Of a stretch of DNA of 64,000 nt, positions 9,004-11,245 are shown piece by piece. Within the stretch, counting starts at the first letter, position 1; each line of letters starts with the position of its first letter. Origin of the DNA: Streptomyces nigrescens (GTDB taxonomy: Bacteria; Actinomycetota; Actinomycetes; Streptomycetales; Streptomycetaceae). The notes under the pieces are model-generated. The model did no database searches. It worked only from the letters and a program-made list of their open reading frames with translations, and was not told the DNA's origin. Position numbers and translations under genes: made by a program. Location: the NCBI GenBank assembly GCA_024349765.1, contig AP026073.1:7440001-7504000 (forward strand), given 5' to 3'.

Positions 9004-10008
9004 TCACGAGAAGTGCAGTGCCCCCCCCCACAGCGCCACGACCGCGAGGGTGAGTGCCGCGGGCACCGTGAGGAGGCCGAGGCGGGTGAACTCCCCTAGG
9101 TCCACCTCGTGTTCGTGCTGGTGGAGGATGCGGCGCCACAGCAGGGTGGCCAGGGAGCCGGCGTAGGTGAGGTTGGGGCCGATGTTGACGCCGATCAGGA
9201 CGGCGAGGACGGCGCCGGGGCCGGTCGGGGCGGTCAGGGGGAGCAGAACCAGTACGGCCGGCAGGTTGTTGATCACGTTGGCGAGGAACGGGAGCGAGGC
9301 GGCCCTGAGCAGGCCGAGGGCGGTGGTGCGCCGCCGTATCAGGGCGCGTACGGCGAGCAGCAGGGCGCCGGCGGTCGCCGCCCAGGCCGGGTCCACGCCC
9401 ACGGCCGAGGCGAGGAGGAAGCCCGCCAGCGTGCCGGCCACGGTGAGCAGCGGGAACAGCGGCAGTGGGGGCTCCACGGCGGTTGGCGCGTCCGGGGCGG
9501 TGGCCGCCGCGTCGAGGTCGACGGCCGCCGCGTCCGGGTCGGTGACCCCCGCGTCCGGGTCGGTGACCCTCGCGTCCAGGTCCGTGGCGAAGAAGCGGCG
9601 GAAGACCGCGTACTCGACGGCGATGGCCGCGAGCCAGGGCAGGGCCATCAGCGCCGCGAAGCGGGTGAAGCTCAGGCCGCTGGCGGCGAAGGCGAGCAGG
9701 TTGGTGAGGTTGGAGACGGGCAGCAGGAGCGACGCGGTGTTCGAGAGGTGGGTGCAGGCGTAGACGTGCGGCTTGGCGCGGGCGCCCATGCGCGCGGCGG
9801 TGGCGAGGACCACCGGGGTGAGCAGCACGATCGTCGCGTCCAGGCTGAGCACCGCGGTGATGGCGGACGCCAGGCCGAAGACCGCGGCGAGCAGCCGCCG
9901 GGGCCGCCCGGCCGCCGCCCTCGCCGTCCAGGCCCCGCACGCGCGGAAGAGTCCTTCGTCGTCGCAGAGCCGCGCGAGCACCAGTACGGCCGCGAGGAAC
10001 CAGATCAC
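9004..10008 (-). pseudogene. SLC13/ArsB-type ion transporter, 5'-truncated
   Basis: A multi-span transporter of the arsenite/dicarboxylate (ArsB/SLC13) fold. Conserved stretches are LAAVLVLARLCDDEGLF, LSLDATIVLLTPVVLATA, LSNTASLLLPVSNLTNL and the C-terminal repeat FLANVINNLPAVLVLLP with GVNIGPNLTYAGS. The first usable start is the GTG at 10008, already inside the second conserved helix. Family members normally have roughly 65 more N-terminal residues. The frame upstream runs through GEAGRLGS and then Arg/Gly-rich sequence to a TAA at 10084-10086, so the missing helices are absent, not shifted. The cytosolic linker carries DPDA repeats (15-21 bp units, about 9500-9590). Either a pseudogene or a shortened protein; transport is doubtful. 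Confidence 0.62.
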
Positions 10009-10086
10009 CGAGCCGAGACGCCCGGCCTCCCCTTGCCCCTGCCGCCGGCACCGACCGCGCCCTTGCCCGTCCCCCGCGCGCGCTTA

Positions 10087-10103
10087 TTGCACATGATTCG
10101 CAA
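10087..10103. promoter_or_regulatory. FUR-family-like palindrome
   Basis: TTGCACATGATTCGCAA is an 8-1-8 imperfect palindrome (TTGC..AT G AT..GCAA, 6 of 8 positions paired). It sits between the beheaded transporter (minus) and the tsaD-like gene (plus) and overlaps the expected -35 of a candidate -10, TACTCT, at 10122-10127. The shape recalls actinobacterial Zur and Nur boxes; which regulator, if any, cannot be told from sequence. Confidence 0.45.
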
Positions 10104-10171
10104 ATGCGGTCCATCGGCAACTACTCTGGGCGGCGCCGAGGGGCTCGTCGTGTCCCGGGAGGAGGAACCGT

Positions 10172-11245
10172 ATGCGTGCGGCACCCGTGGTGCTGGGGAT
10201 CGAGTCGTCCTGCGACGAGACGGGCGCGGGCCTGGTGCGCGACGGCCGGCTGCTCGGGCACGCCGTGGCGTCGAGCATGGACGAGCACGCGCGGTTCGGC
10301 GGGGTGGTGCCGGAGATCGCGGCCCGCGCCCACGTCCACGCCCTCCGGCCGGTCGTCCGGCGCGCGCTGGGCGAGGCGGGCCTGCGGATGGCGGACATCG
10401 GGGCGGTCGCGGTGACGACGGGGCCGGGGCTGTCGGGGGCGCTCCAGGTCGGGCTGGCCGGCGCCAAGGGGCTGGCCTACGCGCTCGGTGTGCCGCTGTA
10501 CGGCGTGCACCACCTGGCCGGCCATGTCGCCGCCGACACCCTCGCGCACGGGCCGCTGCCGAACCCCTGCGTCGTACTGATCGTCTCCGGCGGCCACACC
10601 TCCCTCCTCCTCGTCCGCGATCTGGCCCGCGACCGCATCGTGCACCTCGGCGACACCCTGGACGACGCTGCCGGGGAGTGCTTCGACAAGGTCGCCCGGG
10701 TCTTCGGGCTGCCGTATCCCGGCGGTCCGGCCATCGACCGGGCAGCGCGCGTGGGGGATCCGCGCGCTGTCCCCTTTCCCCGTCCGCTCACCGGACCGCG
10801 TGACGATCCGTACGGCTTCTCCTTCTCGGGGCTGAAGACCGCTGCCGCACGGTGGGCCGAGCGGCACCAGGGGCGGGCGCTGCCGGTGGCGGACGGTGCC
10901 GCCGCGCTCCAGGAGGCGGTCGCCGACGTGCTGACCCGTAAGGCGGTGGCGGCCTGCACCGCCCACGGTGTCGGCACGCTCGTCGTGGTCGGCGGGGTGG
11001 CCGCCAACTCCCGGGTCCGGGCACTGGCGGAGGAGCGGTGCGCGGCGGCCGGGATCGCCCTGCGGGTGCCGCCGCTGAAGCTGTGCACGGACAACGGCGC
11101 GATGATCGCCGCCATCGGGGACCTGCTCGTCCGGGCGGGCGCGGAGCCCGCGCCGCTGGATGTCTCGATCGATCCGTCGGCTCCCCTGGAGTACGCCGCA
11201 CTGCATCCGGTGGCCCGCGCCGCCGCGGCGGCCGGCGCTCCCTGA
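10172..11245 (+). CDS. TsaD-like protein (tRNA N6-threonylcarbamoyladenosine transferase family), stand-alone copy
   Basis: Kae1/TsaD family protein of about 357 aa, full length. TsaD moves the threonylcarbamoyl group onto A37 of ANN-decoding tRNAs. Motifs present: [12 protein letters not shown] (9-20), [10 protein letters not shown] (45-54), metal ligands in HHLAGH (113-118), SGGHTSL (139-145), [13 protein letters not shown] (164-176) and TDNGAMIA (306-313, D307 a metal ligand). A strong site, GGGAGGAGGAACC, precedes the ATG. The usual Streptomyces tsaD sits in a block with tsaB, rimI and alr. None of these is here, so this may be a second copy, which needs the rest of the genome to confirm. 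A FUR-like palindrome overlaps its promoter. Confidence 0.85.

Follow-up and report, generated by a model that had tools for sequence, protein, structure and literature searches.

A second TsaD gene behind a Nur-type box in Streptomyces nigrescens, probably encoding a nickel-regulated isoenzyme

We consider it likely, from sequence comparison, that tsaD2, a second tsaD gene in the 64-kb window (the whole stretch of DNA that was analyzed), encodes a working TsaD isoenzyme that is repressed by nickel-loaded Nur and made upon nickel starvation. TsaD is the threonylcarbamoyl-transferring subunit in the modification of A37 in tRNAs that decode ANN codons. Comparison across genomes establishes the paralogy, the purifying selection on tsaD2, a conserved box of the sodF type in front of it and a Nur gene in the same genome, as well as nickel or superoxide genes that adjoin tsaD2 in some genomes and genomes in which a protein of the TsaD2 type is the sole TsaD. 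The features of the locus are collected in Table 1.

Metal-regulated spare housekeeping enzymes are known for zinc, and a nickel-sensor case acting on tRNA modification, in some strains together with an alanyl-tRNA synthetase (AlaRS), would extend this theme. We know of no need for nickel in translation, and among the matches listed in a search of the mainly open-access literature by titles and beginnings of abstracts, none dealt with a role of Nur or nickel in controlling TsaD or AlaRS. If true, our reading suggests that nickel supply is tied to translation in many soil actinomycetes carrying tsaD2. It makes two questions testable, namely which metal TsaD carries in vivo and how nickel affects t6A and decoding, and a natural genetic test is offered by genomes that have no copies but the spare ones and lack the box.

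Table 1. Features of the tsaD2 locus (positions within the window)
Feature	Position	Strand	Remarks
tsaD2, second TsaD (t6A transferase subunit)	10172..11245	+	357 aa; ATG 10172, stop 11245
TsaD2 metal ligands H114; H118; D307	10511-10513; 10523-10525; 11090-11092	+	Alignment to solved TsaD chains
Likely ribosome-binding site of tsaD2, GGGAGGAGGA	10157..10166	+	Putative; read from the sequence
Nur-type box, 23 bp, TTATTGCACATGATTCGCAAATG; core 10087-10103	10084..10106	.	31.3 bits, sodF-derived matrix; best site of the window
ArsB/CitMHS-like transporter gene, divergent from tsaD2	9004..10008	-	CitMHS 72.8 bits, ArsB 65 bits; partial matches

TsaD2, its paralogue and its descent

The original prediction had claimed a complete tsaD-like gene, and this is what profile searches returned: the protein encoded by the window passed the TsaD equivalog model TIGR03723 with 392.3 bits (cut-off, 296.1) and also exceeded the cut-off of PF00814. 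An identity as a HypF/TobZ carbamoyltransferase was considered and rejected, HypF_C_2 giving only 20 bits (cut-off, 27). The same genome (9.33 Mb in 2 contigs) has the canonical gene, tsaD1, at full length (C1:8229984-8231003); a TsaB hit precedes it by about 0.8 kb, and the two TsaD proteins share 62% identity. The paralogy and the location outside the usual tsaB context that had been proposed are thereby confirmed, and the genome search, in which absence of a canonical tsaD had been set beforehand as the refuting outcome, found one. TsaD2 resembles canonical bacterial TsaD (YgjD/Gcp) in passing the equivalog model, in its H-H-D ligands and in being the sole TsaD of some genomes, but it differs in forming a clade of its own and in lying away from tsaB.

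The HxxxH and Asp ligands were likewise found in place, as had been claimed. In the alignment to solved TsaD chains, H114, H118 and D307 fall on the H-x3-H and CTDN positions, that is, on the H-H-D metal-ligand motif of TsaD as given in the excerpt of PMC11648230. These ligands were kept in all 49 TsaD2 rows, and the rows of the clade that represent sole copies retained both HxxxH (21/21) and CTDN (21/21). Moreover, the SCDET cysteine and the metal ligands were identical between TsaD1 (20/20 rows) and TsaD2 (49/49 rows). Since all metal ligands are kept, TsaD2 is no simple metal-free spare, and a metal-free replacement enzyme was ruled out by the ligands of both TsaD2 and its occasional partner AlaS2. 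H113, beside the ligand H114, was dropped as a hallmark of TsaD2; it is N in the TsaD1 proteins of the genus but H in two of the solved chains aligned.

Of 150 genomes drawn from the genus, our own included, 39 had a gene whose product is 81 to 100% identical to the window protein; named carriers include S. microflavus, S. globisporus and three Kitasatospora, with Glycomyces paridis at 70%. Two further genomes outside the 39 (G083 and G010) hold tsaD2 in two pieces each, at 82 to 88% identity. Draft assemblies among the compared genomes can miss genes, and two drafts of the genus (G008 and G050) yielded no TsaD or TsaB hit, probably owing to assembly gaps. A quickly built tree of 150 TsaD proteins placed TsaD2 in a clade of 73 rows, which has an SH-aLRT of 100 and whose stem measures 0.45 substitutions; support within the clade is weaker (SH-aLRT, 64 to 99). 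Across 13 tsaD2 gene pairs, dN/dS was 0.06 to 0.16, which indicates strong purifying selection.

Some genomes run on this type of TsaD alone. One full TsaD of the clade, together with TsaB, was found in G113, G135, Actinomycetospora callitridis, G436 and 16 further genomes whose promoters were scored for the box; G459, a fragmented assembly, has a sole TsaD of the clade and gave no TsaB hit. In G113 and G135, one TsaD and one AlaRS are present, both of the second type and adjacent, and in G436 the sole TsaD2 is followed by an AlaS2-like gene. The first two are drafts of ∼480 to 550 contigs at 99% completeness, G436 has ∼20 contigs, and the three possibly represent one lineage. Because TsaD2 and AlaS2 occur as sole copies, both can apparently carry essential functions.

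The Nur-type box and its candidate regulator

The box is separated from the ATG of tsaD2 by 65 bp. Its core palindrome, TTGCACATGATTCGCAA, has 6 of 8 arm positions complementary by eye and fits the Nur consensus tTGCaa-N5-ttGCAA given in the excerpt of PMC3919588; the right side of the box (TCGCAAATG) is weaker than in most tsaD2 boxes. The sodF promoter of the same genome carries TTGCACATTGATTGCAA, the same kind of site. While the palindrome that had been noted is thus present, its supposed overlap with the −35 element gained no support from a crude sigma-70 scan, which found no promoter-like site at tsaD2 and which covers Streptomyces promoters poorly. Genome-wide, the bare pattern TTGC-N9-GCAA has 32 occurrences and the reversed control more (88); being common, the pattern was rejected as a measure of significance.

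Sites were scored with symmetrized 23-bp matrices, the first derived from 23 unique sodF sites and the second restricted to tsaD2-negative genomes (14 unique sites). At 30 sodF loci, the best stretch in the 200 bp upstream matched TTGCA-N7-TGCAA at 8 to 10 of the 10 fixed positions, each stretch being a best-of-many pick without a null of its own and the one at L226 being chosen by hand; L230, a region shared by sodF and tsaD2, was excluded from the matrix. For each gene, we scanned the 250 bp that precede the conserved G-I-E-S-S-C-D-E-T codons, took the top-scoring site and set the threshold at the 99.9% point of 10,000 random 250-bp windows. Within the 64 kb, the next best site reached 9.5 bits, versus 31.3 bits for the tsaD2 box.

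Where tsaD2 occurs alongside a canonical tsaD, the second matrix detected a box above this threshold in 52 of 54 copies, so that the predicted conservation of the palindrome in orthologous promoters is borne out. The two exceptions are G078, where the match begins at residue 28, and Pseudonocardia CNS-139, where the gene is in two pieces; one of the 52, from another family (G213), has a weak box (17.8 bits with the first matrix). The set of 54 excludes the broken copies of G083 and G010, though these are boxed (29.4 and 29.2 bits). In contrast, the same matrix found the box in none of 21 TsaD2-clade genes that are the sole TsaD (maximum, 5.8 bits), a set that excludes G193, G240, G274 and G375, in each of which the single TsaD is of roughly this type. 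Three of the 21 are in the genus (G113, G135 and G436, all boxless before tsaD2) and 18 are elsewhere, where the absence could reflect another regulator or another type of box. The sodF promoters of G113 and G135 also have no Nur-type site (3.1 bits). Being found in two-copy and missing from sole-copy promoters, the box goes with second-copy status.

Upstream regions of canonical-type tsaD genes (54, mostly from other actinomycetes and with our own genome represented twice, as L001 and L003) did not exceed 12.6 bits. A background pool of 110 loci (659 kb) contained three sites above 15 bits, at 29.2, 16.4 and 15.9 bits, the strongest of which lies in the promoter of a tsaD2 remnant in G010 (L158); without it the maximum is 16.4 bits. 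The first null set contained tsaD2 loci and the second still contained L158, and the remnant in the pool means that the thresholds used were too strict rather than too lax. In 51 promoters aligned on the box, the mean information was 1.60 bits per column within it, a value inflated by alignment on the best match, and 0.13 and 0.32 bits in the 35 bases before and the 45 bases after, so that the flanks still show little else in common. TAnnnT directly precedes the box in 18 of the 51.

The genome of the window has four Fur-family genes. One of their products is close to 3MWM, a "metal uptake regulation protein" (Zur-like) that we take to be S. coelicolor Zur, and two are close to neither 3MWM nor 3EYY. 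The remaining gene, at C1:7115584-7115913, encodes a protein near-identical to 3EYY (218 bits over 110 aa), which is S. coelicolor Nur according to a figure legend in PMC7055735; the other three proteins gave no match to 3EYY at an E value of 1e-10. Nur is described in the excerpt of PMC7055735 as the nickel-loaded repressor of sodF and nikABCDE. Judged by the sodF-derived matrix and the Nur consensus, the box points to Nur, and thus to nickel, over zinc as the control of tsaD2. Of the metal control originally proposed, the part that stands is a box of the metal-sensor type, apparently of the Nur kind; the zinc theme as such gains no support from a site of the sodF/Nur kind. tsaD2 resembles the S. 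coelicolor Nur regulon (sodF and nikABCDE, with sodN regulated inversely) in the kind of box, the orthologous regulator and the co-presence of sodF, but it differs in that the targets named in the excerpts of PMC3919588 and PMC7055735 are superoxide dismutases and nickel uptake, with no tRNA-modification enzyme or aminoacyl-tRNA synthetase among them.

AlaS2 and other neighbors of tsaD2

In some strains tsaD2 is accompanied by alaS2, which encodes a full alanine-tRNA ligase (TIGR00344, 758 bits; cut-off, 457) with 52 to 56% identity to AlaS1 and with the zinc ligands of HxxxH and CGGTH kept. At an identity of at least 78%, alaS2 was found in 10 of the 150 genomes, namely in 9 of the 39 with tsaD2 and 1 of the 111 without it (G094). 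It lies directly behind tsaD2 at L011, L189-L194, L197 and L198 and apart from it in G051 (L195), where it has a Nur-like site of its own (20.2 bits with the first sodF matrix). The genome of the window has a single AlaRS, of the AlaS1 type, and G012 has a second AlaRS of another type (44 to 49% identity). Short AlaRS-like genes covering ∼400 profile positions form a separate class, with 13 rows in the genus (e.g., G067:C1:150556 and G011:C18:98394). The S. coelicolor gene called alaS2 (SCO7600), WblC controlled according to the excerpt of PMC7157823, shares its name with the gene described here, which does not imply that they are the same.

Searching 54 tsaD2 loci by tblastn, we found SodF at 5, a NicO/NicT-type permease at 2, a CobL-type protein (CbiE/CbiT) at 9, AlaS2 at 11 and GNAT at 8; this set differs from that scored for the box in containing three sole-copy loci, and its flanks were mostly 1.5 kb, with 3.5 kb for eight. 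None of these five was found at 20 tsaD1 loci, whose flanks were somewhat shorter (total locus length, 2.6 to 3.9 kb). Within the flanks searched, the majority of the 54 tsaD2 loci lacked any gene related to nickel or superoxide. G067 carries sodF, nicT, tsaD2 and GNAT in this order; sodF and tsaD2 are each preceded by a box, and a further, weaker box (22.7 bits) is found close to the start of nicT, whose product passes the NicT model NF052500 (598 bits; cut-off, 450). G105 has divergent sodF and tsaD2 genes with one box each, and two Kitasatospora have a single box between the two genes. Overall, sodF was present in 39 of 39 genomes with tsaD2 versus 89 of 111 others (Fisher, 0.001, kinship ignored; with related genomes such values overstate independence).

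The neighbors of tsaD2 in the window, an ArsB-like transporter and an ABC transporter, are not nickel genes. They were found by tblastn at none of 56 other tsaD2 loci, where the box is kept. The ArsB/CitMHS-like protein falls below the NCBIfam ArsB cut-offs; its GTG lies 75 bp from the box, and it could share its control with tsaD2.

Farther afield, a ureG-like gene follows the clade gene, there the sole TsaD, in three of the four genomes listed for group f18 g35 (G243, G443 and G358; not G196); the G243 protein passes TIGR00101, and that of G443 is of the cobW/UreG type by Pfam. In G213, genes for a deformylase, a Fur-family protein and a methyltransferase are grouped with tsaD2. Neighbors of TsaD2-clade genes in other actinomycete groups (L313:7702-8448, L319:1695-2411, L315:3904-5144 and L316:5389-6105) are of the ureG-like, peptide deformylase and, once, Fur-family types, and perhaps belong to a wider metal-linked cluster. 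A figure legend in PMC2464607 places def, gcp, ureG and a precorrin gene around actinobacterial fur genes, so that the proximity of gcp to a fur gene has been published before.

Possible roles of the second copy

Under the regulation that we propose, Ni-loaded Nur would occupy the box when nickel is sufficient and keep tsaD2 off. When nickel is scarce, Nur would be released and TsaD2 made alongside SodF and the nickel uptake proteins, in some strains with co-induction of the AlaS2 encoded directly behind it. We infer Nur binding and nickel repression of tsaD2 from known Nur biology. TsaD2 would presumably pair with the TsaB and TsaE of the cell, either replacing TsaD1 or acting beside it.

We know of no TsaD property that explains a need for a second TsaD at low nickel. 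With less support than the regulation, we suggest that TsaD1 (and AlaS1) perhaps work poorly in nickel-starved cells and that a differently tuned metalloenzyme is held in reserve. Such cells would lose Ni-SOD and draw in other metals, and either mis-metallation of TsaD1 or superoxide damage to it would fit, since TsaD of A. aeolicus accepts Fe, Zn or Mg for activity and carries an oxidized active-site cysteine, Cys10, according to the excerpt of PMC11648230 (further metals are named in that of PMC9654439).

It is possible, if somewhat doubtful, that TsaD2 is instead a reserve against oxidative stress, with Nur reading the box, TsaD2 being useful as a superoxide-resistant enzyme once Ni-SOD is lost and nickel serving as a proxy. 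The sodF-type box of tsaD2, the presence of sodF in the flank at 5 of 54 loci and the oxidized Cys10 of A. aeolicus TsaD, which can use Fe2+ (PMC11648230, in excerpt), agree with this idea, but TsaD1 and TsaD2 do not differ in the SCDET cysteine or the metal ligands, and no residue change is obviously protective. We regard it as improbable that TsaD1 and AlaS1 are themselves nickel loaded or nickel favored and that Nur would switch TsaD1 to TsaD2 and AlaS1 to AlaS2, from nickel to another metal, in parallel to the switch from SodN to SodF. The nickel-to-iron switch of the dismutases is similar in its nickel-dependent choice of isoenzymes, and tsaD2 bears the sodF-type box; however, SodN is a nickel enzyme, whereas nickel use by TsaD1 is hypothetical.

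Spare drug targets are common in Streptomyces, and a drug-insensitive TsaD (and AlaS2) could protect against an inhibitor of the housekeeping enzyme. Translation paralogues, including an alaS2, respond to antibiotics via WblC in the excerpt of PMC7157823. Nevertheless, the flanks of tsaD2 vary, those read by eye share no biosynthetic cluster, and the promoter bears a sodF-type box instead, which makes target protection quite unlikely.

A Zur-repressed, zinc-independent TsaD that spares zinc appears more unlikely still. Such paralogues of zinc enzymes have been described for nine families, HisI, PyrC, Cam, HemB, CysRS, ThrRS, AmiA, QueD and DksA, of which ThrRS and CysRS keep their zinc ligands (PMC2770081, in excerpt); TsaD can bind Zn (excerpts of PMC9654439 and PMC11648230), and a Zur-like gene is present in the genome. 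tsaD2 shares with Zur-controlled paralogues that it duplicates the gene of a housekeeping metalloenzyme and follows a box of the Fur-family type, with ligands kept in some of them. It differs in its box, which by the sodF-derived matrix is of the Nur (nickel) kind, in belonging to TsaD, a family outside the nine named in that excerpt, and in keeping all its metal ligands, ligand loss being a feature of some, not all, of the class. Finally, we give almost no credence to a coincidental short palindrome before a decaying duplicate, since the 32 occurrences of the bare pattern and the broken copies in G083, G010 and Pseudonocardia CNS-139 are outweighed in the sequence comparison, which already contradicts this idea, by the box in 52 of 54 copies against a background maximum of 16.4 bits, by the low dN/dS and by genomes living on the TsaD2 type alone.

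Strong Nur-type boxes were also observed away from tsaD2. One of 33.7 bits, the third strong box of our own genome (L244:3731-3753; C1, near 3797230), lies at the 5′ end of the reading frame of an MFS transporter, a possible Nur target, and others were found in G067 (L245:2771; 33.7 bits) and G019 (L247:2519; 32.3 bits).
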